Positions 8,629 through 45,156 of a DNA stretch of 47,834 nt are shown here, in pieces. The stretch comes from a virus. The notes under the pieces were generated by a model. It ran no database searches. It had not been told where the DNA came from and worked only from the letters and a program-made list of their open reading frames with translations. The stretch lies in the IMG/VR virus record IMGVR_UViG_3300042446_001106, positions 1 through 47,834 of that record. One strand, written 5' to 3'. Made by a program: the position numbers and the translations under genes. Each line of letters begins with the position of its first letter. Positions within the stretch are counted from its first letter, which is position 1.

Positions 8629-8657
8629 GTAATTAACTATCATAAAAAGGAGAAGAA

Positions 8658-9188
8658 ATGATTAAGCTCATTAAAATCTTACTTGTATTGATCGGTCTAG
8701 CACTTGTTGGATTTATTGGATACAAAGCGGTCATGTATAAACTTGACCCAACTAAGCAATTGGTTATGAAAAACACTTCAGTAACAGCTGAAGTTAGAAA
8801 TAAGCAATTAGAATGCTTGGCTCGTAATATCTATTACGAAGCAGGTAATCAACCTTTTGAAGGTAAAGTTGCTGTAGCACAGGTTACTATTAATCGTGCA
8901 GAAAGCGGACAATTTCCCTCCGATATCTGCAAAGTAGTTTACCAAAAGAATGTAGTGTACGAACGTGTACTTTGTCAGTTTAGTTGGTATTGTGAAACAG
9001 CCACTATGATGAGGCCAAAAAACACAGCCGTATTTAAAGAAAGCGAAATGGTTGCACGACAGGTTCTATTGGAAGGGTTCCGTTTGCCTAGTTTGAAAAA
9101 TGCATTATATTTTCACGCTACGCACATCAATCCAAAATGGAACAGAGAACAAGTAGCCGTTATCGCAGGTCACGTATTTTACAAATAA
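8658..9188 (+). CDS. SleB-type cell-wall hydrolase (endolysin candidate)
   Basis: 176 residues, AAGGAG upstream. An N-terminal hydrophobic helix (LIKILLVLIGLALVGFIGYK) acts as a signal anchor. The catalytic domain has the Hydrolase_2/SleB layout: CLARNIYYEAGNQ with the catalytic Glu, VAVAQVTINR, and near the end ALYFHATHINPKW. These enzymes cleave the glycan strands of peptidoglycan. The anchor suggests a membrane-tethered or signal-arrest-release lysin. A small multi-pass membrane protein follows directly, consistent with a lysis cassette. Confidence 0.9.
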   Translation: MIKLIKILLVLIGLALVGFIGYKAVMYKLDPTKQLVMKNTSVTAEVRNKQLECLARNIYYEAGNQPFEGKVAVAQVTINRAESGQFPSDICKVVYQKNVVYERVLCQFSWYCETATMMRPKNTAVFKESEMVARQVLLEGFRLPSLKNALYFHATHINPKWNREQVAVIAGHVFYK

Positions 9189-9197
9189 AGGAAAGTT

Positions 9198-9518
9198 ATG
9201 CAAATTAGTTTAAGAGAATTGGTTAATCTTAAAAAGATGAGAGACAGCCTCACCGAGAACATTGGACATCTTAGTGCAGAGACACTCGGATGGATTGGTG
9301 TTATTCTAGTACATTTGGCTACTATTCCAACACTAGTTGCAGTACTTACTGGCCTAACCGAAAAGTTACCCCCAGTTGATATGGTTGCCCTAATGTGGTT
9401 AGGCCTGTTTACATTCTTTGTCAGAAGTGTTATTGCCAAAGATTTGTTAAACATTATCACAATTGGTTTTGGATTCTTTGTCCAAGCTATGTTGATGGCA
9501 TTGATTATTTTTAAATAA
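9198..9518 (+). CDS. Multi-pass membrane protein, holin candidate
   Basis: 106 residues with three predicted membrane helices (around residues 29-49, 63-78 and 84-105) and a charged N-terminus. It lies nine bases after the lysin stop with a good ribosome site (AAAGGAAA). Size, topology and position suit a holin, but no family signature is visible, so this is an inference from context. Confidence 0.75.
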   Translation: MQISLRELVNLKKMRDSLTENIGHLSAETLGWIGVILVHLATIPTLVAVLTGLTEKLPPVDMVALMWLGLFTFFVRSVIAKDLLNIITIGFGFFVQAMLMALIIFK

Positions 9519-9528
9519 CCAAAAAACA

Positions 9529-9557
9529 TTGACACATCAACCCTCTGATAGTATAAT
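9529..9557 (+). promoter_or_regulatory. sigma70 promoter nested in a terminator
   Basis: Consensus TTGACA, 17 bases, TATAAT. The -10 box sits in the loop of the rho-independent terminator at 9541-9577, and TAGTAT/ATACTA arms flank it. It reads into the gene at 9604. Confidence 0.8.
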
Positions 9558-9577
9558 AGATACTACAGAGGGTTTTT
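9541..9577 (+). terminator. Rho-independent terminator containing a promoter -10 box
   Basis: CCCTCTG (9541-9547) pairs with CAGAGGG (9566-9572), inner arms TAGTAT/ATACTA extend the stem, then TTTTTATTTT. It ends the lysin transcription unit. Confidence 0.8.
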
Positions 9578-9603
9578 ATTTTAACACACACAGAAAGGTA
9601 GAT

Positions 9604-9732
9604 ATGAGAAACTTTGTAATCGGTACAATCTTTGGATTGGTTTTAGCTACTGTTGGATTCAGCGGCATTGCTAAAATGTTGGATAGAGGCGTAGACACAG
9701 TTAAAACACACTCACAGGAAATGGCAAAATGA
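9604..9732 (+). CDS. Small membrane-anchored protein
   Basis: 42 residues: one membrane helix near the N-terminus (FVIGTIFGLVLATVGFSGIA) and a short hydrophilic tail. The start was placed at 9604 because the promoter ending at 9557 lies inside the longer open frame and AAAGG precedes this ATG. Overlaps the lipoprotein gene by ATGA. Confidence 0.65.
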   Translation: MRNFVIGTIFGLVLATVGFSGIAKMLDRGVDTVKTHSQEMAK

Positions 9733-10202
9733 AAAAGTTTATTTTAATCCCCATTGTTGCGGCACTGGCTGCTTGTTCAGGCATGAAGACCGTTGAGAAT
9801 CGCAAAGAATACGCACAACCTGATTGGTACCAAGAATGCCAGCAAGCAGGTGTTAAAGGTTACTTCTGGTGGAAGAAGGAGTTCGCCTACGCATGTGGCG
9901 GCGGTGAGTCGCTCCACGCTCAAGCAGCCGAAGAGCAGATGTATGCTATTGCAATGAACAACTTTGCAAAACGTATCAACTCAGAAGTCAACAGTGAAAC
10001 AAAGATTGATTTCATCAACGATAAGAAGAGTACAAAAACTTCTATCTCCTATGTGGTTAAGAACACAACTATTCGCGAACACATGAAAACAGAAACTGCA
10101 CAGTTTACTATGCAGGGTCGTCACTATACCTTTGTGCGTCTTGAGATGCCTAAGGAAGTGTTCAACCAATTGATTGCCGAAGCCAAAGCGCAAAAGCAAT
10201 GA
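9729..10202 (+). CDS. LPP20-like outer-membrane lipoprotein
   Basis: 157 residues. Signal peptide with lipobox LAAC (Cys 16), followed by Ser-Gly, favouring outer-membrane sorting. The mature part (PDWYQECQQAGVKGYFWWKK, GGGESLHAQAAEEQMYAIAM) resembles the LPP20 lipoprotein fold: a small domain that begins with P-x-W and contains an AxxxA helix. It overlaps genes on both sides by four bases. It could be an envelope modifier or superinfection-exclusion factor. Confidence 0.82.
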   Translation: MKKFILIPIVAALAACSGMKTVENRKEYAQPDWYQECQQAGVKGYFWWKKEFAYACGGGESLHAQAAEEQMYAIAMNNFAKRINSEVNSETKIDFINDKKSTKTSISYVVKNTTIREHMKTETAQFTMQGRHYTFVRLEMPKEVFNQLIAEAKAQKQ

Positions 10203-10531
10203 AACTACTACTAGTACTGGCATTAGCAGTTCCGGTTGTTTTAACAGGTTGCTCTAGTGCGCCTGTTAAAACAACCCAGCGGCAATACTGCTACACTAGC
10301 CAAGAGATTAAAACTAAAGATAAAGAAACTGTCTCTAGTGAAACCACAGTTAAATGTAATGACGATCCTATTGAACAAATGGTTGTTAAAAAGATTGGCA
10401 TTGCACGAGACTGCGGCGAATACAAATATGTTATGACCCTTAATGGTCGACCTGTTGAAAGGATTGGATATGCATGTCAAAAATATAATGGCACTTGGGA
10501 AGTTGTTCCTCATCCTAGCATGTTCCAATAG
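10199..10531 (+). CDS. Small lipoprotein
   Basis: 110 residues with signal peptide and lipobox LTGC (Cys 18) followed by Ser-Ser. Four further cysteines (QYCYTS, VKCNDD, RDCGEY, YACQKY) suggest two disulfides in the periplasm. It overlaps the preceding lipoprotein gene by ATGA and the next gene by 62 bases in a different frame. No family recognised. Confidence 0.8.
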   Translation: MKLLLVLALAVPVVLTGCSSAPVKTTQRQYCYTSQEIKTKDKETVSSETTVKCNDDPIEQMVVKKIGIARDCGEYKYVMTLNGRPVERIGYACQKYNGTWEVVPHPSMFQ

Positions 10532-10895
10532 TTACGCTCAATCATGGTCTGGTCCGATGAATCGTGATCGTATTAAAAACGATGGATTATTGGCCTTTAC
10601 CTACAACATGTCGATTTATTACGGATCAAGATTACCTAAAGCAGATAATGCTTTGCATTCTCAGGCAGTTTATCACGCACTGAATAATCTTGACAACGGA
10701 GAACTTATTGAATGGTACAATGACCGAACTAACAGTCACGGAAAGGCACGTATAGTTTATACTATACCAGGAAGTGGGACTATTTGTCGACGTATTCATA
10801 GTTTGGTGCAGACAGCTGACCGTTCAAACAACTATGAAGACACTGCCTGTTATAATAACAACACTAATACCTGGACTTTTGTCGATAAATATTAG
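10470..10895 (+). CDS. Exported surface-antigen-like protein
   Basis: 141 residues. Start set at 10470 because AAAGGA lies just upstream and a signal peptide follows (LGKLFLILACSNSYA, cleavage before QSWSG). The C-terminal part (ELIEWYNDRTNSHGKARIVY, then SGTICRRIHS, EDTACYNNNTNTW) has the layout of the C-terminal domain of rickettsial-type 17 kDa surface antigens: W-x-N-x-x-T, G, C-R, ...T-A-C-x-x-x...W. Its first 62 bases overlap the upstream lipoprotein gene out of frame. Likely periplasmic or outer membrane; role unknown. Confidence 0.75.
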   Translation: MHVKNIMALGKLFLILACSNSYAQSWSGPMNRDRIKNDGLLAFTYNMSIYYGSRLPKADNALHSQAVYHALNNLDNGELIEWYNDRTNSHGKARIVYTIPGSGTICRRIHSLVQTADRSNNYEDTACYNNNTNTWTFVDKY

Positions 10896-10898
10896 TCT

Positions 10899-12281
10899 AT
10901 GAAGATTACATTAGCAGATAAATTTATCGCATACCTTGCGCTATTCAGTGGATTGACTATATCTGCTGTGGCCATTTGGTACTCAGTAGCAGGACTGGTT
11001 AGCATTTTTGCGGCCGCAGTAATACCTATTATTGTTATGGGTGTGGTATTAGAGGTTAGCAAACTTATTGCCACAGTATGGCTCAAGCTGAATTGGTCTC
11101 GTGCTCCTGTGTTTATCCGATCATATCTGATAGCGGCCATTGCTATCCTAATGATTATAACATCAATGGGTATCTTTGGATTCCTAAGTAAAGCACACAG
11201 CGATGCTGGTCTAGTGTCAGGCGATGTGCAAGCCAAAATTGCAGTCTACGATGAAAAAATTAAAACAGCCAAAGAAAATATTGAAGCCAACCGCAAACAA
11301 CTTAAACAGATGGATGAGGCGGTTGACCAAGTCATGGGTCGCAGTTCAGATGAGAAAGGTGCCGACAAAGCGGTTTCAATACGCAAAGCTCAGTCTCGTG
11401 ATCGCAGTGCGTTGGCCAAAGACATTGAAGCCAACCAGAAGCTTATTGCTACTCTTAATGACCAAGCCGCACCTATTCGAGCAGAAGTACGAAAAGTAGA
11501 AGCGGAGGTAGGCCCAATCAAATACATTGCGGCATTTGTCTATGGAGATAATCCAGATGCTAACGTACTAGAAAAAGCTGTCACTTGGGTAATCATTATT
11601 ATCGTATCAGTCTTTGATCCGTTAGCAGTTATCCTATTGCTTGCCAGTCAATATAGTTTCCAATGGTTCCGTAAGTCCCGTGAAGATGAAGAACTATTAC
11701 ATAGCACAGTCCCATTGCATGTTGCAGATGAAACTCCTAAAGAGCCTATGAAGTTTGTTGATCCGGGAGAGCATCCTGATGATCACTTAGAAACGGAACT
11801 GGCCGAACCTGAGCCGGTTGTAGAGAAAACTCTAGCAGAACAACATCCTTACTTAAATCAGCCGTTCAGTCATTTTAAAAATTTAACACCCGTAGTTCAT
11901 AAACCTGAACCTGTTGTTGAAGAAAAAACTGATCCACTAGACCAATGGAACAAAATGATTGAAGCGGCTGAAGAAGAAGTAGCTAAAGAAAAAACTCCTG
12001 ACGAAATTCTCAACGAAGGTTTAAACGAACCAACATACCAATTACTTCCAGAATTACAAGAAACATTGAACAAGACAGAGTGGCCAGATAATCCTGCAAA
12101 AGGCGACCGATGCGTAATGTTCGTTGACGGTGCTAATCGAAGTTTTATCTTTAATGGTAACGTTTGGATAGATGCTGATCATTCAGATCCAGGAGCTGTT
12201 AATGCCTTGGACGAATCAAAAAAAAAGAGCACATACATAATCAAAGATCAGAATCAACAGATCAAGAAGACCAAAGAGTAA
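10899..12281 (+). CDS. Large membrane coiled-coil protein
   Basis: 460 residues. Four predicted membrane helices: about 9-30, 33-52, 70-90 and, after a coiled-coil region, 222-245. Between helices 3 and 4 is a long charged coiled coil (KIAVYDEKIKTAKENIEANR...), and the last 200 residues are soluble, acidic and Pro/Glu-rich. Overall it resembles DUF4407-type membrane proteins seen in large phages. It could remodel the inner membrane or hold a complex at it. No enzymatic motif. Confidence 0.82.
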   Translation: MKITLADKFIAYLALFSGLTISAVAIWYSVAGLVSIFAAAVIPIIVMGVVLEVSKLIATVWLKLNWSRAPVFIRSYLIAAIAILMIITSMGIFGFLSKAHSDAGLVSGDVQAKIAVYDEKIKTAKENIEANRKQLKQMDEAVDQVMGRSSDEKGADKAVSIRKAQSRDRSALAKDIEANQKLIATLNDQAAPIRAEVRKVEAEVGPIKYIAAFVYGDNPDANVLEKAVTWVIIIIVSVFDPLAVILLLASQYSFQWFRKSREDEELLHSTVPLHVADETPKEPMKFVDPGEHPDDHLETELAEPEPVVEKTLAEQHPYLNQPFSHFKNLTPVVHKPEPVVEEKTDPLDQWNKMIEAAEEEVAKEKTPDEILNEGLNEPTYQLLPELQETLNKTEWPDNPAKGDRCVMFVDGANRSFIFNGNVWIDADHSDPGAVNALDESKKKSTYIIKDQNQQIKKTKE

Positions 12282-12284
12282 GTT

Positions 12285-12371
12285 ATGTGCAGAACTCAGA
12301 ACAAAATCCAAATTCATTATGGACAAGAATTAAACACCGAGACAGCTAATTATAATATACATAAGCGATAA
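12285..12371 (+). CDS. Possible 28-residue peptide
   Basis: MCRTQNKIQIHYGQELNTET... in a short frame between two real genes. There is no convincing ribosome site, only proximity to the upstream stop. It may be the eroded tail of the upstream gene. Weak call. Confidence 0.25.
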   Translation: MCRTQNKIQIHYGQELNTETANYNIHKR

Positions 12372-12372: not shown

Positions 12373-12798
12373 ATGAATATTGGAAAAATTAATTTAATTA
12401 CACCTCCGGATAAGTTGTTTAATCTTAATCCCGGATACTTACTAATCAAACCAAGTACTAAGGTAAAGATGCAGTTCCAACAACTGCTTAGTCAAAGTAT
12501 AGATGACTTGAATGTGTATATGTACGATACTGACGAAGTTGACATCGAATGGATGCTAAGTGTTAGTCAGCAAGCAGATTTTATCATTATTGATATTGAC
12601 AACTGCGATTCTGTTACTAAACAGTTTGTTAGCTTTTTACTAGCACAACCAAATACTCACTATTTGACTAGTGACGAAATCACTCCTTGGCACCTAATTA
12701 GCCGCAATAGGATATATAACTTAGACTGGATTTTAGATGCTCTAAAAGACCAGGACGAAGAAAATGATGAACCAGAAGAGGAAAATGATGAGGAATAA
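12373..12798 (+). CDS. Hypothetical protein with acidic tail
   Basis: 141 residues with a compact alpha/beta-looking body (FIIIDIDNCD in mid-protein, WHLISRNRIYNLDWILDAL near the end) and a nearly all-acidic C-terminus (DQDEENDEPEEENDEE). It overlaps the bS21 gene by 11 bases. No family recognised. A TATAAT lies at 12351 but without a convincing -35. Confidence 0.75.
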   Translation: MNIGKINLITPPDKLFNLNPGYLLIKPSTKVKMQFQQLLSQSIDDLNVYMYDTDEVDIEWMLSVSQQADFIIIDIDNCDSVTKQFVSFLLAQPNTHYLTSDEITPWHLISRNRIYNLDWILDALKDQDEENDEPEEENDEE

Positions 12799-13021
12799 TC
12801 ATATTAAGGGAACAGTAATTGTTCTAAAAGAAGGTGAGGATGTTAACCGTGCTCTACGCCGATTTAAAAATAAAATTGAAGATTTAGGTATTCTCAAAGT
12901 ACTTCAATCAAAAGAGTTTTATGAAAAGCCAACTACTGAGCGTAAGCGTAAGAAATCGGCTGCTAAGGCTCGTTGGCGAAAACAGTTGGAAAAAGATGCA
13001 TTACCTAAAAAAATGTATTGA
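12788..13021 (+). CDS. rpsU: Ribosomal protein bS21
   Basis: 77 residues. The family signature is clear: VIVLKEGEDVNRALRRFKNK, then KEFYEKPTTERKRKKSAAKA and a Lys/Arg-rich C-terminus. bS21 sits near the anti-Shine-Dalgarno end of 16S rRNA and affects initiation; phage-encoded copies are known and thought to bias host ribosomes. GAGGA precedes two adjacent ATGs; the second (12788) has the better spacing. The start lies inside the upstream gene. Confidence 0.96.
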   Translation: MRNNHIKGTVIVLKEGEDVNRALRRFKNKIEDLGILKVLQSKEFYEKPTTERKRKKSAAKARWRKQLEKDALPKKMY

Positions 13022-14174: not shown

Positions 14175-16046
14175 ATGAGCAAAGTCATCGGTATCGATTT
14201 AGGTACAACAAATTCATGTGTAGCTATTATTGAAAATGGCGTCGCAAAAGTTATTGAGAATTCAGAAGGCGCACGTACTACACCTAGTATTGTTGCATAC
14301 GCTAATGATGAAATTCTAGTAGGCGCAAGTGCAAAGCGTCAAGCAGTAACAAACCCCAAGAACACAATCTATGCTAGCAAGCGACTAATTGGACGTAAGT
14401 TTGATGAAGCGGCTGTGCAAAAAGACATTGATCTAATGCCTTACACCATCATCAAGGCAGATAACGGTGATGCTTGGGTACAGGTAAATGAGGACAAACT
14501 AGCACCTCCACAAATTTCAGCTGAAGTACTTCGCAAGATGAAAAAGACTGCTGAGGACTATTTAGGTGCAGAGGTTACACAGGCAGTTATTACAGTACCA
14601 GCTTACTTTAATGACAGCCAACGTCAAGCCACTAAGGATGCAGGTAAGATTGCAGGTCTTGAAGTGCTACGTATTATTAACGAGCCTACTGCGGCTGCAC
14701 TGGCCTACGGTGTTGATAAGGCTGACAAGAAAGACAGCAAAGTTGCAGTATACGACTTGGGTGGTGGAACTTTTGATATCTCTATTATTGAGATTGCTAA
14801 TGTCGATGGCGACAAACAGATTGAAGTGTTAAGTACGAACGGTGATACATTCTTAGGTGGTGAAGACTTTGACCAACGCATCATGGACTTCTTGGTTGAT
14901 GAGTTTAAGAAAGAAAATGCAATTGATCTTAAGAAAGACATGCTGGCTCTACAACGCCTAAAAGAGGCTGCTGAAAAAGCCAAGATTGAATTGTCCAGCA
15001 GTGCCAGTACCAGCGTTAACTTGCCCTATATTACAGCAGACGCTAATGGCCCTAAGCATATGAACGTTACTATTAGCCGTAGTAAGCTAGAAAGCCTTGT
15101 TGAAGAATTGATTCAACGTAGTATTGAGCCATGCCGTATTGCTATTAAAGATGCAGGTGTGGATGTTAGCGAAATTGACGAGGTTATCCTTGTTGGTGGT
15201 ATGACACGCATGCCTAAGGTACAAGAAGCAGTTGAGAAGCTGTTCGGTAAGGCTCCACGTAAGGATGTTAACCCAGACGAAGCAGTTGCAGCGGGTGCGG
15301 CTGTACAAGGTGCTGTGCTAGCAGGTGACCGTAATGACGTATTGTTACTTGACGTTACTCCATTGAGCTTGGGTATCGAGACCATGGGCGGCATTATGGC
15401 CAAGTTGATCAACAAGAATACAACTATCCCAACTAAGGCTAGTCAAACATTCTCAACAGCAGAAGACAACCAACCAGCAGTTACTATCAAAGCGTTCCAG
15501 GGTGAGCGTGACCTAGTACAACATAACAAGCTATTAGGCGAGTTTAACTTAGAAGGTATCCAGCCACAACGTCGTGGTCAGCCACAGATCGAAGTTACAT
15601 TGGATATCGATGCCAACGGTATCATGCACGTAAGTGCTAAAGATAAAACCACTGGTAAAGAAAACAAGATTACTATCAAGTCAGACTCGGGTCTAACTAA
15701 AGAAGAAATCGAACGTATGGTACAAGAAGCAGAAGTTAACGCAGAGAGTGATAAGAAGACTCGTGAGTTGATCGAAGCACGTAACCAAGCAGAAGCACAG
15801 ATCCATAGCATTAAGAAAGATATGGAAGAAGTAGATGCAGAGTTATCGGCCGAAGTTAAAGACAAAGTTAACGAAGCTATCACTTCAGTAGATGCAGCAA
15901 TTATCACAGAAGATAAAGATGCCATTACACAAAAACTTAGCGACTTGTTTACTGCGGCTCAACCAGTGATGGAAGCTAAACAAAAGAAAGAAGAAGCTAA
16001 GAAGAATGAAACTCCGGTAGACGCAGAGTTTACTGAAGTTAACTAA
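14175..16046 (+). CDS. dnaK: Molecular chaperone DnaK (Hsp70), full length
   Basis: 623 residues, close to bacterial DnaK. The nucleotide-binding domain has [11 protein letters not shown] at the N-terminus, [26 protein letters not shown] and VGGMTRMP. The linker [10 protein letters not shown] leads to the substrate-binding domain ([20 protein letters not shown]), a helical lid, and the C-terminal DAEFTEVN characteristic of DnaK rather than HscA. Cytoplasmic, ATP-dependent refolding, normally with DnaJ and GrpE, neither of which is seen here, so host co-chaperones must be used. Codon use looks like that of the neighbours, so it is not an obvious recent capture. Confidence 0.98.
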
Positions 16047-16125: not shown

Positions 16126-16572
16126 ATGAACGCAACATTAAGAACTATTGATACTGCCGCTTTAGCTCAACTGAGTAGAGCACTTGTAGGATTTGATCGA
16201 ATGTTTGACACCTACGAAACTCGATTCGCTAGTCAAACATCTAACTATCCTCCACACAACATTGTTAAGTATGACGAATATCACTACGCTATTGAAATGG
16301 CAGTAGCTGGATTCAAGAAGAGCGAAATCGCTGTAGAAGTTGAGAATGATCAACTGACTATCCGTGGTGAGAGCTTGACTGCTAACGATCCGACAAGGCA
16401 GTACATACACAGAGGCCTAAGTAGTCGAGACTTTGAAAGAAGGATAGGGCTTACTGAACATATGATTGTTAAAGGTGCTGAAATCCAAGACGGCATTTTG
16501 ACCATCAACATCGAACTTGAGCTTCCTGAAGAAAAGAAGCCAAGAGTTGTTGACATTGTAGAAATTAAGTAA
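16126..16572 (+). CDS. Small heat-shock protein Hsp20 (IbpA-like)
   Basis: 148 residues. The alpha-crystallin domain spans about residues 38-135 with the hallmarks AVAGFKKSEI, V-x-N-x-x-L-T-I-R-G-E and YIHRGLSSRDFERR...L. The N-terminal FDRMFDTYE resembles IbpA/B. A C-terminal I-x-I/V-like motif is only loosely kept (VVDIVEIK). These ATP-independent holdases hand clients to DnaK, which is encoded directly upstream with the same leader. Hsp20 is common in T4-like marine phages. Confidence 0.96.
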   Translation: MNATLRTIDTAALAQLSRALVGFDRMFDTYETRFASQTSNYPPHNIVKYDEYHYAIEMAVAGFKKSEIAVEVENDQLTIRGESLTANDPTRQYIHRGLSSRDFERRIGLTEHMIVKGAEIQDGILTINIELELPEEKKPRVVDIVEIK

Positions 16573-16578
16573 TATAAT
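16550..16578 (+). promoter_or_regulatory. Consensus sigma70 promoter for the clpS-bilin operon
   Basis: TTGACA, 17 bases, TATAAT, located in the last codons of hsp20 and abutting the hairpin at 16579. Confidence 0.82.
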
Positions 16579-16602
16579 AAGGGGAAGGCAACTTCCCCTT
16601 TA
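16579..16602 (+). terminator. Hairpin after hsp20
   Basis: AAGGGGAAG (16579-16587), loop GCAA, CTTCCCCTT (16592-16600). Only a short T run follows, so termination may be partial. The hairpin begins right at the promoter -10 end. Confidence 0.6.
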
Positions 16603-16620: not shown

Positions 16621-16923
16621 ATGAGCGCAACAGACGTAAAACTTGACGAAAAGATCAAACAAAAGGTTGAAGAACCGCATCGTTGGAAAGTTATCCTATT
16701 AAACGATGACCATACTCCTGTGGACTTTGTTATTGGAATCCTAACAGAGATTTTTAAACACAGCCAAGAAACAGCCAAGGGTATCACAATGCAGATACAT
16801 ACTGAAGGAAGTGGTATTGCTGGAGTTTACAGTTTTGAGATTGCTGAAGTAAAGGCAGTTGAAGCAACTAATCTAGCTAGAGGCAACGGTTTCCCACTCC
16901 AAATTAAAATGGAAGAAGAATGA
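16621..16923 (+). CDS. clpS: ATP-dependent Clp protease adaptor ClpS
   Basis: 100 residues, the normal length. Residues 21-47 (HRWKVILLNDDHTPVDFVIGIL) hold the conserved NDD-x-T-P binding-pocket motif; QIHTEGSGIAGVYS and the EIAEVKA segment complete the fold. ClpS delivers N-degron substrates to ClpAP and inhibits other ClpA substrates. Phage carriage could redirect host proteolysis. GGAGA precedes the start; ATGA overlap with the heme oxygenase gene. Confidence 0.95.
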   Translation: MSATDVKLDEKIKQKVEEPHRWKVILLNDDHTPVDFVIGILTEIFKHSQETAKGITMQIHTEGSGIAGVYSFEIAEVKAVEATNLARGNGFPLQIKMEEE

Positions 16924-17471
16924 GTTTAAAAGAACTAACACACGAAGCACACCGTAACGCAGAAACACAATCATTTGTCAAGATTTTATTCTCTGGCAAA
17001 ATTAATCCAGAGTTGTATGCTGCCTATCTAAAAAATCAACACCCGTGTTATGAAATTTTAGAAGTGTGCGCTATGCCGCATGGATTACTACATGGCTTAC
17101 CTGATATGCGTAGAGCACCCGCTATTTTAGAAGATTACTTAGAGTTGCATGATCCTACGCAGGAAGAGCCTAAAATTTTACCTGCAACTGAACGTTATAT
17201 CAAGTACATTTTAAGTATTAAAGACGAGCCACAGAAATTAATGGCACACTTGTATGTACGTCATATGGGCGATTTGGCAGGTGGACAAATGATTGCAAAA
17301 CGTGTTCCTGGTAGTGGAAAATATTATCAGTTTGAAAATCCCGATGCACTTAAGACTGCAATCCGCGAACGACTAAATGATGACATGGCCGACGAAGCTA
17401 AAGTATGCTTTAAGTACGCCGAAGAGATGTTTAAAGAAATGATGACATTAGTTGAGTTTGTAGATGAGTAA
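16920..17471 (+). CDS. Heme oxygenase
   Basis: 183 residues. The proximal heme ligand is His11 in EAHRNAE. The distal helix with its flexible glycines reads HMGDLAGGQMIAK, preceded by AHLYVR. It opens heme to biliverdin IX-alpha, CO and iron using reduced ferredoxin or another reductase. The next gene encodes a bilin reductase and overlaps by eight bases, so biliverdin is probably passed on. Heme oxygenase genes are known from cyanophages and from uncultured marine phages carrying pcyX. Confidence 0.95.
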   Translation: MSLKELTHEAHRNAETQSFVKILFSGKINPELYAAYLKNQHPCYEILEVCAMPHGLLHGLPDMRRAPAILEDYLELHDPTQEEPKILPATERYIKYILSIKDEPQKLMAHLYVRHMGDLAGGQMIAKRVPGSGKYYQFENPDALKTAIRERLNDDMADEAKVCFKYAEEMFKEMMTLVEFVDE

Positions 17472-18144
17472 TGTTTGGGATACATTGATTGGGATAGAGC
17501 AACTACTTGAATCTAAGTTCTATGCGACAGGTAGTATTATTAACGAACCTGGTATGGATCGATTCAATCAACCCGGGTGGGTAAACAAAGTATGGGCAAG
17601 TAGTCGTTATCGTCGTGCTCATATTGATGTAGTAGATGCTCGCACAACAAAAGGCCTGTGGATGATGCATTGTTGTGTGTTCCCACATACACACAATCCT
17701 GCTCCTATTTTTGGATTTGATGTGATCGCAGGCAAGAATAAGATTACCGGCTGTTTTATTGATTACAGTCCTGCTGGAGATACTAATCATCCTATGATTG
17801 AGTATTTTGGTGAAGAAGTAGCTAGGTACGAGTGGAATAAGCCACGTAAATTGCCTGACTGGGCAGAGCGTATCTTTAGTAAGCATATGGTTGCAGCGGG
17901 TAATGTAAGTGACGAAGAAGAACTTCGTCAAATCTCAAGTCTTGCCAATATTCTAGTAAATCATTACTTAGAGTGCGTTGACGAAACTAATAATACTGCG
18001 GAAAACACTACAGAAGCGCAAAACTACTACGCACAGAATCAGAAGCAAAACCCGCATACTCCCAAAGTTATGGTTAGTCTAGGGCTAAGTGAAGACGATG
18101 TTCAGCACTTTATTCAGGAATGTTTGTTCCCGGAAATCAGCTAA
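17464..18144 (+). CDS. Ferredoxin-dependent bilin reductase (PcyA/PcyX-like)
   Basis: 226 residues. The core matches the family: WASSRYRRAHID, MMHCCVFPHTHNPAPIFG and FDVIAGKNKI, then FIDYSP. His69 and Asp86 are spaced by 17 residues, exactly like the catalytic His88 and Asp105 of PcyA. The product cannot be read off: PcyA gives phycocyanobilin, and phage PcyX gives phycoerythrobilin. The C-terminal region (NNTAENTTEAQNYYAQNQ) is a low-complexity insert before the last helix. It is paired with heme oxygenase; no bilin acceptor protein is in the window. Confidence 0.88.
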   Translation: MSNVWDTLIGIEQLLESKFYATGSIINEPGMDRFNQPGWVNKVWASSRYRRAHIDVVDARTTKGLWMMHCCVFPHTHNPAPIFGFDVIAGKNKITGCFIDYSPAGDTNHPMIEYFGEEVARYEWNKPRKLPDWAERIFSKHMVAAGNVSDEEELRQISSLANILVNHYLECVDETNNTAENTTEAQNYYAQNQKQNPHTPKVMVSLGLSEDDVQHFIQECLFPEIS

Positions 18145-18154: not shown

Positions 18155-19927
18155 ATGAGATTTACAGAGTTTAAATTAACAGAAGCAGTCCTAAGGGGCT
18201 CGTCATCCACTAGTTGGCCAGGTTACTTGAGAAATATGATTTCTGCTGGTAGTTTGTCGCTAGGTACATCTGGTGAAAAAGCTAAAGGGTTAGTTTTAAC
18301 TCCGGAATCAAAAGAAATTATCAACACCCTTGAAGTAGAAATTAAAGATGCAATAGCAACAAAGGGTAATCTTGAACTAGTTAAATCAAAGATTGAGTCT
18401 ACAGAAATATCGTTTACTAATGGAACAACTGCATTAATTAAATCTGTATTTAAGAGTCCTGAACTTAGATCAGGTGCTGCAGATGTAAAAACTGGCGCAC
18501 GTACTACTAAGTATTGGAACGATGGCGAAGTTGCAGAAACCTTCCTAGGTGTTGCACTATTTGCTCGTTTCAAAAGTAAAAAAGAAATTACCGCAGATCA
18601 AGTATACACAGAATTTAAAAAGTTAAAGGCTATACCTGGCGGTTTTATGATGAAGGGCAAGCGCGGCAATAATCCAGTAGAAATGCTTGCAATTAATAAG
18701 CCAGCTAATAACCAAGCTATTGAAGAAATTTCATCAGATTTATCAAAATTTAAACGTGAATACCCAGATGCATCTACAGAGTTATTAAAGTTAATTGATG
18801 CATCAGTTTCGTATGTTAATCAATCTAGTAATGTTTTTGAAGCTATTGCAAAAGCAGACAACGAACCTAATGCAGATAAGATTATTATTAAAACAGACGG
18901 AGTAAGCGATCAAACTGGAACTAAGGCTGACTTACAATTAAATGTAGGCGACTACGAAAGACTGCTAAGTTTAAAGGCAAATTATGTTAAACAATTTGGT
19001 CAAGACACTGGTGCTAGATATGAAGTTATTCAGACATTCTTTAGTAGATTTATCCCCGATGTAGATATTTCAGCACTTGAATCTCAATGGCCGCAGATGG
19101 ATGCTGCTAATTTAAAGAATTACAGAGCACAAGGCATTGCTAGAGATAAGTTTAACGAAGTTTATAGTTTAGTATCACAAGCATATACTACTGCATCTGA
19201 TGTACTGAATTCTAAATTATCTAAGCCGGCAACTGCAAGTGGGGTAGTAACTGATCTATATAATGGTATCATACACCATGCTCAAGGTAATGAAACAAAA
19301 CAAGTAGTGGTAGTATTAAATCCTAGTGCAAATAAAGCATGGGCTGAATTAGAATTTGGTGAATCCCTAGCAACTTCTCTTGCTTCTTTTAGATTAGAAA
19401 CTAAATTGACCCTAGCAGGGCAAGGTGGTAAGGATAATCATATCTTGCAAATTTTTGGCCGTCCTGCAAACAGTATTGCCGCAGTTGCAATGGATAATAA
19501 TATCTCTTCTGATAAGCAAGCTCAACAGGCACTAGCAGTTGCTAAGAAACGAGCACCTAAGGTTGATCCAGAATTATTATTCCAACTAAGATCTTATGTT
19601 CAGGAAGCTGGTCCTACACTACGTAACATTGTCGAAATGGGGCCTCTGTTAAAAGATATTACAGAAGTACAACAAATACAAAATGTTGCTAACACGCCTG
19701 AACCTGCTGAAGATGAACCACAAGTAGTACAACCGAGCAAATCAACACAGGCAACAAACGTGGCGGCGCCTACTCAAACGACTGCTACAACAAAAGGTGT
19801 ACCAAGCGGTGCAACTAGTATTGCTCCTATGAGTGCAACTATAAACAAAGATCCTGCCGAAGAAGATCCAATGGCTGATAAAGAGTTAGATCGAGTTAAG
19901 AAAAATGCCGGTATTAGCGTCGAATAA
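18155..19927 (+). CDS. Putative packaged internal head protein
   Basis: 590 residues, no signal or membrane segment. The start at 18155 opens MRFTEFKLTEAV, which resembles the T4 capsid-targeting sequence of internal proteins (MKTYQEFIAEA). LTE followed by Ala fits the L/I-x-E cleavage rule of the T4 gp21 prohead protease. The body is mixed alpha/beta with no motif I recognise; the last 90 residues are Pro/Thr/Glu-rich and unstructured. A late-type box precedes it. If right, the protein is packaged with DNA and injected. The assignment rests on a ten-residue motif only. Confidence 0.6.
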   Translation: MRFTEFKLTEAVLRGSSSTSWPGYLRNMISAGSLSLGTSGEKAKGLVLTPESKEIINTLEVEIKDAIATKGNLELVKSKIESTEISFTNGTTALIKSVFKSPELRSGAADVKTGARTTKYWNDGEVAETFLGVALFARFKSKKEITADQVYTEFKKLKAIPGGFMMKGKRGNNPVEMLAINKPANNQAIEEISSDLSKFKREYPDASTELLKLIDASVSYVNQSSNVFEAIAKADNEPNADKIIIKTDGVSDQTGTKADLQLNVGDYERLLSLKANYVKQFGQDTGARYEVIQTFFSRFIPDVDISALESQWPQMDAANLKNYRAQGIARDKFNEVYSLVSQAYTTASDVLNSKLSKPATASGVVTDLYNGIIHHAQGNETKQVVVVLNPSANKAWAELEFGESLATSLASFRLETKLTLAGQGGKDNHILQIFGRPANSIAAVAMDNNISSDKQAQQALAVAKKRAPKVDPELLFQLRSYVQEAGPTLRNIVEMGPLLKDITEVQQIQNVANTPEPAEDEPQVVQPSKSTQATNVAAPTQTTATTKGVPSGATSIAPMSATINKDPAEEDPMADKELDRVKKNAGISVE

Positions 19928-20909: not shown

Positions 20910-21848
20910 ATGAAAGCAATTAAATTATCCTTAATTACATTAGCAATAGTAGCCTTAGCAGGTTGTTCAACTGTCCGCCCATGGGGCAGTACTAAAATTA
21001 AAGAAGAAGCCAAAGTAAGTGAAACAATCAACAAGAGTTTCTCTGTTATTCCAGCGCCAGCAGGCCCAGCAGTAACCGTAGCAGTATATGGTTTCAAAGA
21101 CCTAACAGGACAGCGTAAGCCAAGTAGTACATTGAGCTTGTTCAGCACAGCAGTTACACAAGGTGCTGAAGCATACTTGATGAAGAGTCTACAGGAAGTC
21201 GGCAACCGTCAATGGTTCACAGTGGTTGAGCGTGTTGGCCTAGACAACTTGTTAAAAGAGCGTCAAATGATCAAACAGACCCGTGAGATCTATGATGGTG
21301 CAAATGCCAAACCTTTACCTCCACTACAAATGGCAGGTGTTATTCTAGAAGGCGGCATTATTGATTATAACAGCAATACACTAACAGGCGGCACTGGTGC
21401 TCGTTGGTTAGGCATTGGCACATCTACAGCCTACACACAAGATGTAGTTGTTATCAGCTTACGTTTAGTAAGCGTACAAACTGGAGAAGTCCTAACTACT
21501 GTTACAGTGGAAAAGAACTTGCTCAGCACCGCAGATGGTGCCACAGCGTTGAAGTTTTTCAACCAAGCGACTCAGGCATTTGAATTTGATTCAAGCCAAA
21601 CATTTAACGAGCCAGGTAACTATGCCCTACGTTCAGCGATCGAAACAGCAGTTATTGAGTTAATTAAGAAAGGCGAACGTAATGGTTTATGGCAATTCAA
21701 GGAGAAGTCCAATGAGTTGGTTCAAACACAAACCAAGACTAAAGACGCAGCCAAAGCTGCACCCACACCACAGCAGCCCAATATCGGAGCAGGTGTTGAA
21801 GGAAGCAAAGAAAAGAGTATCTGGGGAAGACTCCAGTTCTGGAAATAA
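20910..21848 (+). CDS. csgG: Curli secretion channel CsgG
   Basis: 312 residues (E. coli 277). Lipoprotein signal with lipobox LAGC at residues 16-19. Family signatures: AVYGFKDLTGQRKPSS, FSTAVTQGAEAYLMKSL, WFTVVERVGLDNLLKERQ, and the transmembrane hairpin region around GARWLGIGTSTAYTQDVV. CsgG forms a nonameric outer-membrane pore for unfolded curli subunits. The extra 40 residues at the C-terminus are Lys/Pro-rich. With CsgF upstream and curlin-type substrates downstream this forms a complete export-plus-cargo unit. Confidence 0.96.
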   Translation: MKAIKLSLITLAIVALAGCSTVRPWGSTKIKEEAKVSETINKSFSVIPAPAGPAVTVAVYGFKDLTGQRKPSSTLSLFSTAVTQGAEAYLMKSLQEVGNRQWFTVVERVGLDNLLKERQMIKQTREIYDGANAKPLPPLQMAGVILEGGIIDYNSNTLTGGTGARWLGIGTSTAYTQDVVVISLRLVSVQTGEVLTTVTVEKNLLSTADGATALKFFNQATQAFEFDSSQTFNEPGNYALRSAIETAVIELIKKGERNGLWQFKEKSNELVQTQTKTKDAAKAAPTPQQPNIGAGVEGSKEKSIWGRLQFWK

Positions 21849-21879
21849 AAAGAATAAAGAAAAATAACCAGACTGGGGT

Positions 21880-21908
21880 GTAAAAAAATTTACAGTAAAA
21901 ATTTTTAC
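21880..21908. promoter_or_regulatory. Tandem 14-bp palindromes between csgG and the curlin gene
   Basis: GTAAAAAAATTTAC (21880-21893) and GTAAAAATTTTTAC (21895-21908), almost the same palindrome twice, 15 bases apart, in the 149-base gap. Possible operator for a dimeric regulator; A/T-richness makes chance possible. Confidence 0.45.
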
Positions 21909-21997
21909 ATGTCAGAAAAATAACAGCGGTAGTTTATATATGAGAAGTTCCTTTTAAATAAAATACACAACGGACATTCAAGTCCAAAGGAAATATT

Positions 21998-22858
21998 ATG
22001 AAACAATTATTATTAGTATTAGCATTATTAACAGCGTTCCCAGTAATGGCTCAACAGGCTGTGCTGGCCCCAACTACGCCAACAATCCCGTCAGTGGCTA
22101 CTGTTAGTCCAAACGCAGCCAGTGCATTAGCAGTTAGCACTACCAACAGAGTGTTTATTGATCAAAGCGGTGAGAACCCTAACGTTAATATCACACAAAC
22201 AGGTACAGGCAACACAGTAGGTGCGGACACTACTTACCAAAAAGCACTAACAGGTATCCCTAACAGACTAGGAACACCAACAACTAGAGCCTGGACATTA
22301 AGCAGTCCTGTATATCTAAGAGGTGCTGACCAAACTATTGTTACAGTACAAACAGGCAATAATAACACTATCGGTCTAAGAGCAGAAAATCCTACAACAA
22401 CAGGCGACGGAGTTAATGTTACTATTCAACAAATTGGTAACAGCAACGTAGTTGATGCTGCCTGCGGTGGCGGAACGGCTAGCAATGGAACCACTGCCTT
22501 AACAGGATGTAAGGATGCTGTGTTAAACTGGAAATTTGCTGGCAATACTAACGTGATGCAATTCCGTGGTACAGGTGACAATCTTAACAGCAATGTAGAT
22601 ACAGCTGGTAACAGCAATGAATTTTACATTGACGCTATTGGCAATAGTCATTCACAGACACTAAAAGTTGTTGGTGACTTTAACGTATTCAATGTTAGCC
22701 AAACAAGTACAGGCGCAAGTGGTAGCAGTGCTTGGATAGATGTTACAGGTAGCACCAATAGGTTTACCGTTAACCAAGCTGGAACTGTTGACAGCGTAGT
22801 TAACATCAAGAGTGTAGCCAGTACTGGAACCTGGAACATTAACCAAAAGACCAACTAA
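21998..22858 (+). CDS. Curlin-repeat (CsgA/CsgB-like) secreted protein
   Basis: 286 residues, AAAGGAA upstream. Signal peptide ends FPVMA before QQAVLAP. The mature chain contains curlin-type Q/N-rich strand repeats: NVNITQTGTGNTVG, VTVQTGNNNTIG, VTIQQIGNSNVVD, and later degenerate copies such as GSTNRFTVNQAG and TGTWNINQKTN. The I/V-x-Q-x-G-x-x-N rhythm is that of amyloid-forming curlin. Repeats are less regular than in CsgA and are interrupted by a Cys-containing loop (DAACGGG...GCKD). Likely cargo of the CsgG channel. Confidence 0.85.
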   Translation: MKQLLLVLALLTAFPVMAQQAVLAPTTPTIPSVATVSPNAASALAVSTTNRVFIDQSGENPNVNITQTGTGNTVGADTTYQKALTGIPNRLGTPTTRAWTLSSPVYLRGADQTIVTVQTGNNNTIGLRAENPTTTGDGVNVTIQQIGNSNVVDAACGGGTASNGTTALTGCKDAVLNWKFAGNTNVMQFRGTGDNLNSNVDTAGNSNEFYIDAIGNSHSQTLKVVGDFNVFNVSQTSTGASGSSAWIDVTGSTNRFTVNQAGTVDSVVNIKSVASTGTWNINQKTN

Positions 22859-22867
22859 GGGCTAACA

Positions 22868-24037
22868 ATGAAAGTTGTTGCTCTTATCGTGGGCTTGATA
22901 ATAGCCAGTTCGGCTTGGGCAGAGATTGGCTCTGTTACAGAAGCCAGTGGCACTGCTATCATCAAGCGTGGTAAGGACACAATTCAAATTGCCAAAGGCA
23001 CGCAGATAAAGGTCAACGACAAAGTTGAAACCAAGAACGGAAAAGTCAAGATCGTTTTTAAAGACGATACAAATGTTACTGTTACTGAGTCAAGTAGCCT
23101 TGTTATTGATGACTTCGTTTATGATCCTAAAAGCGGAGCTGGCAAGTTGGGACTCAAAGCCGCCGCCGGCACAGTGCGTTATGTATCAGGAAGCATTGCT
23201 AAAGATCCAAAGAATGTAAAAATCAACACACCCACAGCGGCCATTGCTGTTCGTGGCACTGACTTTGTCATGGCTGTGAGCGAAACAGGTGCTAGTATGA
23301 TCATGTTGATGCCCACTTGCGAAATAGAACAGAACGTAAATTTAAAAGGTCTTAGTTGCGGCAGCGGTGCTATTGATGTAGAAACACCATCTGGCATAGT
23401 TAAATTAAACCGCCCTTATCAAGCCACCCTAGTTGAAACCTTAAACGGTATACCTAGCCCTGCTGTGATAGTTGCTCTTAATGGTATGGCTATTGGCAAT
23501 AACCTAATGGTTAATCCTCCAAGAACAACTACTGGATTAAATGTTATTGCTGCCGCTCGTGCTGCCGCAGTAGCTACTGGCGATGCTAAGAAAGACGATA
23601 AGAAAGATAAGCGTGACGAAAAAGACGAAAAAGACGATGCTAAAGAAGAACGTCAACACGCTGCTAATAAAGATGGGCCTGGCGGCAATAGATCACAGCG
23701 ACAAGGTCGTAGTGCTAATGAAGGCGATGAGGATCCTGGTAATAGAACTAAAGTGGGTTTAGATACTAAAGAAGATACATTAGTCAGTCAAACGGCCACA
23801 GTTAGTGAAACAGAAAACCCTTACCTGTTTAAACTATGGAAAGACAAAAGTGAAACACAGCAGGTTGGTTGGATGTACGAAAGTCTAAGTCCCAACAGCA
23901 GAAACTATGCCAATGTGGTTATGCCTATGAACACTCAGGTACAGGTAATAGTAACACAAGATATGCAGACTAACAGCTGGAACTTTTCAGCAGGTAAAGC
24001 CATAGGACAGATTGTTATCAATCAGAACTACAGATGA
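22868..24037 (+). CDS. Exported FecR-domain protein
   Basis: 389 residues. Signal peptide ends SSAWA before EIGSVTEASG. The FecR domain covers about residues 20-140: GTAIIKRG, KGTQIKVNDKVETKNGKVKI, FKDDTNVTVTESSSLVIDD, and INTPTAAIAVRGTDF. Residues 240-260 are an extreme Lys/Asp/Glu stretch, followed by a C-terminal beta domain. FecR domains outside iron signalling are often near CHASE2 cyclases and surface-protein exporters, as here. It starts nine bases after the curlin gene and overlaps the next by four. Confidence 0.88.
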   Translation: MKVVALIVGLIIASSAWAEIGSVTEASGTAIIKRGKDTIQIAKGTQIKVNDKVETKNGKVKIVFKDDTNVTVTESSSLVIDDFVYDPKSGAGKLGLKAAAGTVRYVSGSIAKDPKNVKINTPTAAIAVRGTDFVMAVSETGASMIMLMPTCEIEQNVNLKGLSCGSGAIDVETPSGIVKLNRPYQATLVETLNGIPSPAVIVALNGMAIGNNLMVNPPRTTTGLNVIAAARAAAVATGDAKKDDKKDKRDEKDEKDDAKEERQHAANKDGPGGNRSQRQGRSANEGDEDPGNRTKVGLDTKEDTLVSQTATVSETENPYLFKLWKDKSETQQVGWMYESLSPNSRNYANVVMPMNTQVQVIVTQDMQTNSWNFSAGKAIGQIVINQNYR

Positions 24038-25863
24038 AAAAAATATTATTTGCCTTAATGTTATTATGCTCTAATGCGTTTGCTGCTATTACTGACGGCA
24101 AGTTCGGTATCAATCAAATATTCGATGTTCAATACAACTGGAGTGGAACTACATTAAATGCCAGCAACTTTATTGCACCGTATAATAAAAACTTTCAAAC
24201 AGTAACAGCAACCAGCGGACAGTACTTTCAGTTCTTTGCCAGCACTACCAATCCGGGAACCTATGGATTGAAGTTGATGAACAGCAATGGCACACAACAT
24301 AGCATTGTTCATGACACCGGCGAGATCACAGCTCTAGGTAATGGTGCTATCTTTTACCTTGGGTCTGGCTGGCTCGGCAATGTTATCACAACATCTACTG
24401 GATATAACTACGGTGCTAGTGCCCAATTCACTAATATGGATACTAGCGTTACTAGCAGTGATTTAAACAATTATACATTTGCTAGTACAACACCCTTGGC
24501 TGCAGGTCAGACAGCACAGCCAGCAGCACCCACTTCCAACTGGCAACCTATTCGAACAACTACAAGTCCAGTACTGATCAGTGACATCTATCCTACCAGC
24601 TATAACAGCCCTAGTAACGAAACAGCAGTTAATGCATTTGACGGTAATGTGGGTACAAAATATCTAAACTTCGACAAGCAGAACGCAGGAGTTACTGTTA
24701 AATTAACTCAAGGCCGAGTAGTTCAAAAGTTTACGTTAACTACTGCTAACGATTCTCCAGAACGTGATCCTGCTAGCTACAAACTATATGGATCAAATGA
24801 CGGCGTTAATTGGACTCTGATTAAAGAAGGTCCGCTATCGTTAAGTGATGGTAGATATGCTGTCAGCGGAGAAATAGCAGTTGCTAACACCAATGCGTAT
24901 GTCTATTACTTTATGTTATTTCCCAGTGTTAAAAACAATAGCGGAAATAGTGTTCAGATTTCAGAAGTTACTTATTACTATGATTTAAATGATGGTGTAA
25001 CCAGTACTGATACTGGATCAGGCGGAACACCTAGTAACCCCGGACAAGCTGGTAGCGTCTGTGCTGACTGTGCTCCTAGTTGGCCAGCAACTAGTGATAT
25101 TACTGTAAACCAAACTACACAACGTAATTCAGCTAAGAATCGTGTAAGTAATGTTTCGTTGGGTAACAGTTTATATGTTGAAGAAAAGATTGGTAGTAGC
25201 GGCAACTCAGTAACTGTAGAACAGACTGGATTTTACAATAAAATTTCGGGTCTAGGTGGAACTACGTATGCAACACTCGAAGGTTCTAGTAACACAGTTA
25301 ATATCAAGCAAGGTGACACACTAGGAAAAAATCTTATTGAGTTTGCCATTAAGGGTAACACCAACAATGTTACTATATGGCAATCACGTAGTCCTGTAAC
25401 AGGATTAAAAGATGGTAGCGAAAGTGGTGGCCACTATATAGGCTTAAACATTAACGGAAGTACTAATACATTATCATTGAAACAGAGTAACGATGGTGGT
25501 GCAACAAGTGGACACTTTGCCTATGTCGATGTTACGGGCACGGGCAACAACGGCGCACTAAAACAAATGGGTAACGGTGAGAAAACATTCTTTGGTATTA
25601 TTAGTGGTAGCACTAATATTTTTGATGTTACACAACAAGGATCAGGCAGTTTCTTTGATCTAAGCCTAACTGGTAACGGACATAATGTTACAGCTAACCA
25701 AAAAGACGCAGGTAGCCATAAAGCCACTATCAACTTAACCAACAATGGTGGTGCTAGTAATGTCACTTTAATACAGCAAGGTGCTACAGCGCAGAATATC
25801 AACATCACACAACAATGTGCTACACTATCAGGGTGTAGTGTTTCAGTGACACAGGGGCAATAG
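24034..25863 (+). CDS. Curlin-repeat adhesin with discoidin-like domain
   Basis: 609 residues. Signal peptide ends SNAFA. An N-terminal beta region (to about 170) is followed by an F5/8 type C (discoidin/CBM32-like) domain at about 185-315: NAFDGNVGTKYLNF, KFTLTTANDSPERDPASYKL, YGSNDGVNWTLI, then QISEVTYYYD. After a short GG/Pro linker with a CADC pair, residues 350-609 carry curlin-type repeats (VTVEQTGFYNKISG, NTVNIKQGD, NNVTIWQS, NVTLIQQGATAQNINITQQ). The architecture suggests an amyloid-anchored carbohydrate-binding adhesin exported through CsgG. Confidence 0.83.
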   Translation: MKKILFALMLLCSNAFAAITDGKFGINQIFDVQYNWSGTTLNASNFIAPYNKNFQTVTATSGQYFQFFASTTNPGTYGLKLMNSNGTQHSIVHDTGEITALGNGAIFYLGSGWLGNVITTSTGYNYGASAQFTNMDTSVTSSDLNNYTFASTTPLAAGQTAQPAAPTSNWQPIRTTTSPVLISDIYPTSYNSPSNETAVNAFDGNVGTKYLNFDKQNAGVTVKLTQGRVVQKFTLTTANDSPERDPASYKLYGSNDGVNWTLIKEGPLSLSDGRYAVSGEIAVANTNAYVYYFMLFPSVKNNSGNSVQISEVTYYYDLNDGVTSTDTGSGGTPSNPGQAGSVCADCAPSWPATSDITVNQTTQRNSAKNRVSNVSLGNSLYVEEKIGSSGNSVTVEQTGFYNKISGLGGTTYATLEGSSNTVNIKQGDTLGKNLIEFAIKGNTNNVTIWQSRSPVTGLKDGSESGGHYIGLNINGSTNTLSLKQSNDGGATSGHFAYVDVTGTGNNGALKQMGNGEKTFFGIISGSTNIFDVTQQGSGSFFDLSLTGNGHNVTANQKDAGSHKATINLTNNGGASNVTLIQQGATAQNINITQQCATLSGCSVSVTQGQ

Positions 25864-25864
25864 G

Positions 25865-26023
25865 ATGTTTAACGCTATAGGCTCAATAATGTTAGCAGGC
25901 ATGCTAGCCCAAGAGCCAAGGTGTGTAAAATGGACCTGGACGGGCGATGTCTACAATCGCAAGGTTGTATGCTTAGAATGGACTAAACCTCCGCCTAAGG
26001 ATAAGGATCCTAAGAAAACATGA
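25865..26023 (+). CDS. 52-residue secreted small protein
   Basis: Starts one base after the adhesin stop and overlaps the next start as ATGA, so it lies fully within the operon. A short hydrophobic N-terminus (MFNAIGSIMLAGMLA) is followed by two cysteines (PRCVKW, VVCLEW) and a Pro/Lys/Asp tail (PPPKDKDPKK). It may be a periplasmic peptide accessory to curli export. No family recognised. Confidence 0.65.
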   Translation: MFNAIGSIMLAGMLAQEPRCVKWTWTGDVYNRKVVCLEWTKPPPKDKDPKKT

Positions 26024-26502: not shown

Positions 26503-26509
26503 TAAATAT

Positions 26510-29419: not shown

Positions 29420-29427
29420 TATTTACC
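29420..29427 (-). promoter_or_regulatory. Late-promoter-like box on the minus strand
   Basis: GGTAAATA on the minus strand, 20 bases before the start at 29400, sharing the TAAATA core. Confidence 0.4.
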
Positions 29428-29434
29428 AAAATGC

Positions 29435-29463
29435 TTGCGTATAAATACTAGTGACTGTATAAT
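29435..29463 (+). promoter_or_regulatory. sigma70 promoter of the tmRNA with an embedded late box
   Basis: TTGCGT, 17 bases, TATAAT (29458-29463). The spacer contains an exact late box TATAAATA (29440-29447), so the gene could be read early and late. ACTGT (29454-29458) and ACAGT (29465-29469) form a dyad around the -10. Confidence 0.82.
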
Positions 29464-29469
29464 AACAGT

Positions 29470-29850: not shown

Positions 29851-29851
29851 C

Positions 29852-29877
29852 ATAGGACCTTCGGGTCCTATCTTTTT
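29852..29877 (+). terminator. tmRNA terminator
   Basis: ATAGGACC, loop TTCG, GGTCCTAT, then CTTTTT. A textbook rho-independent terminator directly after the coding piece. Confidence 0.93.
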
Positions 29878-44613: not shown

Positions 44614-44658
44614 GATTAAAATTAATAGTGGCAAAAAAGCCACATATCAACATGGTTC

Positions 44659-45137: not shown

Positions 45138-45156
45138 GTTGCTCGAAACAAAGGTT

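Follow-up and report, generated by a model that had tools for sequence, protein, structure and literature searches.

A phage heme oxygenase and PcyX-type bilin reductase encoded behind ClpS in a conserved chaperone block

The window analysed here, by which we mean the whole stretch of DNA, is a 47,834-bp virus record in which genes for DnaK, Hsp20, ClpS, a heme oxygenase (HO) and a ferredoxin-dependent bilin reductase follow one another on the same strand (Table 1). The stop codon of ClpS and the start codon of HO overlap by 4 nt (ATGA), and the HO and reductase ORFs overlap by 8 nt. The original prediction, made from the letters alone, had placed a heme oxygenase and a PcyA/PcyX-like reductase in overlapping genes at 16920-18144, and this description held: both ORFs were placed correctly, both exceed their Pfam cut-offs, and the overlap is there. 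Across 21 aligned phage HOs, the heme ligand position His11 and the residues Gly117, Asp118, Gly121 and Gly122 are invariant (21/21), and the window HO keeps the GDLxGG distal motif; the enzyme is predicted to open heme to biliverdin IX alpha.

Table 1. Positions of the genes and sequence features of the DnaK-to-PcyX locus in the window
Feature	Position	Strand	Remarks
DnaK/Hsp70, full length	14175..16046	+	First gene of the conserved block; PF00012, 852 bits
Hsp20 small heat shock protein	16126..16572	+	PF00011, 65.3 bits
Candidate clpS-HO-pcyX promoter, sigma70-like, TTGACA-17-TATAAT	16550..16578	+	12/12 match
Short G+C-rich hairpin, Hsp20/ClpS interval	16579..16600	.	Terminator-like on the - strand; present in several relatives
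ClpS, ClpAP protease adaptor (predicted)	16621..16923	+	PF02617, 96.8 bits; NDD motif and conserved His
Heme oxygenase (HO), 183 aa	16920..17471	+	PF01126 Heme_oxygenase, 75.7 bits, cut-off 23; HO-1 type
PcyX-type ferredoxin-dependent bilin reductase, 226 aa	17464..18144	+	PF05996 Fe_bilin_red, 65.4 bits, cut-off 31; His53/Asp55/His69/Asp86

A putative sigma70-like promoter of clpS-HO-pcyX precedes ClpS, and this assignment is suggestive only because the match partly overlaps the 3' codons of Hsp20. The same interval in 41 distinct relatives gives a 12/12 match in 9 and a score of at least 10 in 11, a level reached by 2.4% of mononucleotide shuffles, while the other 30 of the 41 score lower and have no match.

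The reductase belongs on the PcyX side of the PcyA/PcyX division and is not a PebS. In a sequence search of the PDB, its top match was PcyX 5owg (219.7 bits, E 3e-64; 49% identity over 204 residues), whereas PcyA chains reached at most 62.6 bits, with E-values of 3e-16 or weaker. An AlphaFold2 model built from 29 sequences (pLDDT 92.5) contains the fold of ferredoxin-dependent bilin reductases, which is shared with the PcyA and PebS of cyanophages, and Foldseek ranked 5owg first (TM 0.93 by target length, rmsd 1.5), followed by PcyA, with PebS structures far weaker. The prediction that the catalytic His and Asp are spaced as in PcyA was borne out, since His69 and Asp86 lie 17 residues apart and align with two PcyA residues likewise 17 apart, which we take to be His88 and Asp105 in PcyA numbering. 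PebS, unlike the window reductase, has no equivalent of His69 (the position is Asn in P-SSM2 PebS), so the active site is not PebS-like. Position 55 is Glu in 5/5 PcyA references, Asp55 thereby replacing Glu76 of PcyA, and Asp55 has been described as the PcyX-specific catalytic residue in the main text of PMC11480375.

These residues are conserved well beyond the window. A scan of viral contigs with the window reductase gave 346 relatives, of which the best 80 were all aligned (the near set); these are not independent sequences, collapsing from 80 to 52 at 97% identity, and His53, Asp55, His69 and Asp86 are invariant in 80/80 of these best 80 of 346. A second scan, with the PcyX of phage Mosig, yielded 194 relatives, of whose best 80 we aligned 75 after dropping 5 that had no complete ORF; Asp55 occurs in 73/73 of the rows aligned at that position, the other 2 of the 75 being gapped there. 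The phage phycoerythrobilin synthase PcyX 5owg (EBK42635) likewise has Asp55, His69 and Asp86 and an HO partner. PcyA, by comparison, is 25-29% identical to the window reductase, and the freshwater CB_2 enzyme, described as a PcyA, differs from the window reductase in having no Asp55 (PMC11480375). Because Asp55 is present, the predicted product of the window reductase is phycoerythrobilin, a pink bilin.

The family placement was also examined in a tree of 55 rows, which left out PebS and one cyanophage PcyA (Sf-FP1) for their long branches and contained no alphaproteobacterial PcyA. Here, too, the expectation that the enzyme falls within the bilin reductase family was upheld: the branch between PcyA and every phage PcyX row had support of 100/100, and the window reductase grouped with PcyX. 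The Mosig/5owg group was likewise supported at 100/100, while the near group of the window did not form one resolved clade. Matches to the reductase among bacteria were limited to 2/369 genomes of the class, and the four ORFs from these two genomes, which gave saturated branches and of which some were probably the wrong ORF, were excluded from the tree. Mosig- and marine-type PcyX rows are 48-50% identical to the relatives of the window reductase. Asp55-type PcyX now also covers a large group of phages separate from the Mosig-type set.

The genes just 5' of the pair, namely ClpS, Hsp20 and DnaK, which the original prediction did not mention, are what most sets this locus apart. Among the best 80 of 346 near loci, 68 were testable in that they had at least 3.5 kb upstream; HO preceded the reductase in 65/68, ClpS in 59/68, Hsp20 in 58/68 and DnaK in 55/68, and the whole DnaK-Hsp20-ClpS-HO-PcyX block was found in 55/68, with ClpS missing within 4 kb upstream at 9/68. 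Starting instead from ClpS (best 80 of 165 relatives, 67 loci with room downstream), HO lay within 600 nt in 65/67 and at about 0.9 kb in the remaining two, the reductase followed in 64/67, and the 4-nt overlap with HO was kept in 59/67. From the side of HO (50 loci, of which 3 had no complete HO ORF), the reductase lay downstream in 46/46 and ClpS upstream in 46/47. The ClpS motif starts with ND in 44/44 aligned rows, mostly as NDD with some NDN or NDE, and its His is present in 44/44; the protein is a predicted ClpAP N-degron adaptor. Fourteen loci carry an extra ORF of about 87 aa between ClpS and HO, with no clear Pfam match (for example, L023 9175-9444).

This arrangement sets the window and its relatives apart from the Mosig- and marine-type PcyX, which do not sit in such a block. 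In Pelagibacter phage Mosig, the genes for HO and PcyX likewise overlap, HO first, and the reductase is 46-49% identical to that of the window, but the neighbors of the pair are 2OG-Fe(II) oxygenases, ferrochelatase and neck genes, with no ClpS. ClpS was found at 0/51 testable Mosig-type loci, against HO at 45/51. Some HO-reductase loci without ClpS adjoin T4 gp59-like and late-transcription-coactivator-like genes; L007, L008, L011, L012, L013 and L015 combine such neighbors with another HO type, and the reductase of L007 is 86% identical to that of the window despite its ClpS-less surroundings. Such similar reductases in differing contexts indicate that the HO-reductase pair moves between phage contexts, and, since ClpS is missing at 9/68 near and 51/51 Mosig-type loci, ClpS is dispensable for its persistence.

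The HO at the same position of the locus is not always the same protein. Distinct types occur there, most of them either 39-50% or 57-100% identical to the window HO, and parsimony places 12 changes of type on the reductase tree (50 loci), 9 on that of DnaK (35 loci) and 10 on that of ClpS (43 loci), where the minimum possible numbers are 3, 2 and 2, all on quick trees that are partly unresolved and without a shuffle control. The 4-nt ClpS/HO overlap is found at 13/16 junctions with type A, 16/25 with type B and 2/2 with type D. Given the repeated changes of type and the mostly kept junction, our reading is that HO has been exchanged repeatedly at this position, with selection favoring an HO that is translated together with the preceding ClpS.

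A functional tie between ClpS and bilin synthesis is a candidate link, and the most serious rival is that there is none, HO-pcyX having settled downstream of a chaperone operon, where insertions are tolerated, and being inherited along with it. The block relatives do represent one broad phage lineage, their DnaKs forming a clade of their own, and the pair does occur in ClpS-less contexts, as this account would have it. We nevertheless judge it unlikely, given that the HO type has been swapped again and again in place with the ClpS overlap mostly kept, and that nearly every ClpS in the ClpS-anchored set has an adjoining HO. The conserved ClpS/HO overlap, present in dozens of related phages, is a genetic handle that would tie bilin synthesis to protein turnover.

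The core of the system, HO with PcyX and in some cases 5-aminolevulinate synthase (AlaS), is already known, since such phage pairs have been published (PMC11480375). The original prediction cited uncultured marine phages as the precedent, which is correct but incomplete, as pelagiphage Mosig and freshwater phages also carry the pair, together with alaS (PMC11480375). The hemO-pcyA/X-alaS cassette of that paper unites three activities in one phage, as is the case here, and its broken-cassette arrangement resembles the window phage, in which alaS lies apart from the pair (PMC11480375). The main text of PMC11480375 contains no mention of ClpS, Hsp20 or DnaK, all three of which adjoin the HO-PcyX pair in the window. 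In the open-licence PMC papers searched, we found no link between ClpS and heme oxygenase in phages, and the ClpS tie of the phage HO-PcyX pair thus appears to be new. The jumbo phage Atu_ph07 encodes ClpA, ClpP and ClpS, with no occurrence of "heme" (PMC6102473), and in pmoC phages an HSP20 gene has been described beside an auxiliary gene (PMC7674155); together, these two cases call for caution in arguing from neighborhood alone.

A related record, G001 (66,137 bp), is identical to window positions 1-42268 with zero mismatches and runs 23,869 bp further upstream. While no alaS was found within the window itself, G001 carries one at 8543-9742 on the - strand, about 14 kb upstream of window base 1, whose 399-aa product scores 573 bits to TIGR01821 (cut-off 338.55). 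A TLGK lysine motif is present in the protein, and a Cys-Pro heme-regulatory pair is lacking. AlaS is present in 11/21 related records, G001 included, and missing from 10/21, among them the 345-kb G009, although records may be incomplete. A phage with its own alaS can, on these sequences, feed the pathway that HO-PcyX would drain.

Besides ClpS, other Clp proteins are encoded by this group. ClpP is found in 16/24 records, and full-length ClpA-like proteins are encoded in 8/24, which are all the records larger than 200 kb; at 878-888 bits, they score below the 993 of the curated ClpA cut-off. Since ClpS of the block type occurs on records of up to 383 kb, phages of this group probably have very large genomes. 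Of the four records with both genes, three (G005, G013 and G016) have clpP no more than 1 kb from alaS, and in G002 the two are far apart; the convergent neighbors span 328216-330728 in G005, 44636-46717 in G013 and 10212-12287 in G016. In all three of these records, ClpS and HO are separated by about 270 nt, and the three may belong to a single lineage. Several of the record sample numbers presumably denote freshwater lakes.

The host was approached through DnaK and tmRNA. The nearest bacterial DnaKs to that of the window come from Comamonadaceae and other Burkholderiales, at up to 75% identity, and the tree sets the phage clade at the beta/gammaproteobacterial level with no family assignable. 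A tmRNA at 29422-29875 (+), of the permuted kind, matches the betaproteobacterial tmRNA family with 134.2 bits (gathering threshold 84); its tag, as read by ARAGORN, ends in NDEQFAIAA. From these two markers only, we propose with modest confidence a betaproteobacterial host. The DnaK contig L085, labelled Akkermansia muciniphila, groups within the Comamonadaceae and is probably mis-binned. In the family of the candidate host Limnohabitans parvus, AlaS exceeded the cut-off in 0/150 genomes, and therefore, with a phage AlaS, 5-aminolevulinate would be made in such a host by a route new to it; 102 of these genomes gave weaker matches, which presumably come from synthases that are related to AlaS and share its fold.

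The prediction that the phage carries no photosynthesis genes was confirmed within the scope of our searches. The Pfam scan, which covered 32 window proteins and left out some small ORFs and a 2254-aa ORF at 30941-37705, gave no photosynthesis gene. In the 21 related viral records, including G001, the psbA-type family was found in 0/21 and a phycobiliprotein over the cut-off in 0/21, and a lone weak phycobiliprotein match inside a very long ORF was discounted. Bilin acceptors were sought in two families, phytochromes and phycobiliproteins, and a phage-encoded phytochrome was likewise found in 0/21. A phage 2Fe-2S ferredoxin as electron donor was rejected, Fer2 being present in 0/21 related records with a control that worked. 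AmoC, considered with methanotroph phages (pmoC) in mind, was found in 0/21, in a search whose control was also without any match. Plasmid-borne relatives gave no match.

Heme-catabolic genes kept by phages of non-photosynthetic bacteria have been called enigmatic (PMC11480375). With a probability of about two in three, we interpret the locus as part of a phage-fed operon making phycoerythrobilin, co-expressed with ClpS, in a probably betaproteobacterial host without phycobilisomes, a reading in which we infer the enzyme activities, the product, the co-expression and the host. The phage AlaS would condense glycine and succinyl-CoA to 5-aminolevulinate, which would enter the heme pathway of the host; HO would convert heme to biliverdin with release of Fe2+ and CO, and PcyX would reduce biliverdin to phycoerythrobilin with electrons from host ferredoxin. 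HO-PcyX would be expressed together with ClpS through translational coupling at the 4 nt shared by stop and start codon, as part of a block active during infection that would also supply DnaK and Hsp20. The bilin is probably used for a purpose other than photosynthesis; in our view, a redox or protective function, in which the bilin would be an antioxidant or an electron sink, or the loading of a host bilin-binding protein is more likely than iron release alone.

Salvage of iron or heme is an alternative that we hold to be improbable. Here, HO would free hemoprotein iron for the class I ribonucleotide reductase, whose NrdA and NrdB genes the window also carries, and PcyX would just clear biliverdin, which would keep HO turning over; the source hemoproteins might be degraded by ClpAP-ClpS, in keeping with the chaperone and proteolysis genes linked to HO. 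A role in iron supply is also discussed in PMC11480375. Against this stands alaS, which raises heme synthesis, itself an iron consumer, and a four-electron reductase with strictly kept PcyX residues would be an elaborate means of biliverdin disposal. The earlier suggestion that the pathway might serve to remove heme and free its iron thus fits badly, when taken alone, with a phage whose AlaS would add to the heme precursors. Its alaS gene argues instead that the bilin, or the consumption of electrons and O2 during its synthesis, is what is wanted and not iron alone.

A more far-reaching role for ClpS, which we regard as doubtful, would have it direct the ClpAP protease to tetrapyrrole enzymes of the host, glutamyl-tRNA reductase for example, so that AlaS, HO and PcyX impose a flux of the phage's own. 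Bacterial and plant glutamyl-tRNA reductases are Clp substrates, and the plant enzyme is bound by ClpS (PMC6597238). The coupling of ClpS with HO, the ClpA-like proteins in 8/8 records larger than 200 kb, the frequency of ClpP and the proximity of clpP to alaS are all consistent with such a rewiring. On the other hand, the records in which clpP and alaS are adjacent are those with a gap in place of the ClpS-HO overlap and a possibly single origin, ClpS would also be at home beside DnaK and Hsp20 as part of a general set of proteostasis genes, and the HO-pcyX pair persists elsewhere without ClpS. Still more speculative is a full Clp-coupled tetrapyrrole programme in large phages of non-photosynthetic bacteria, in which ClpS, co-translated with HO, would direct ClpAP onto tetrapyrrole enzymes or hemoproteins, while AlaS, HO and PcyX would carry the flux from 5-aminolevulinate to phycoerythrobilin for a use other than light harvesting.

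Adducts of phycoerythrobilin, the predicted product, with phytochrome are photo-inactive, and phytochrome domains are patchily distributed, being present in 4/17 betaproteobacterial genomes with a similar DnaK and absent in 13/17, including three Limnohabitans. Supply of a chromophore to a host phytochrome, as the original prediction suggested, here a bacteriophytochrome or other bilin photoreceptor, altering light responses during infection, is accordingly the least probable of the readings and very unlikely, even though some of these genomes do encode phytochrome domains and a freshwater phage PcyA gave a functional phytochrome chromophore (PMC11480375).

Several further features were noted along the window. 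A homologue of ribosomal protein S21 is encoded at 12764-13021 (+), a little 5' of the DnaK block, and a cluster at 20910-28573 (+) comprises genes for a CsgG-like secretion protein, a FecR-domain protein, an F5/8-type-C-domain protein and a CHASE2-adenylate/guanylate cyclase, the last being 39% identical to the cyclase of Methylophilales phage Melnitz and 33% to that of pelagiphage HTVC008M. An array of 17 tRNA genes at 45603-47834 (+) reaches the end of the record. Directly 3' of pcyX, the ORF at 18155-19927 (+) starts with MRxxEF, an N-terminus common to several otherwise dissimilar ORFs (in G001, at 1042, 1314 and 13409) that, as we presume, resembles the capsid-targeting sequences of T4-like phages.
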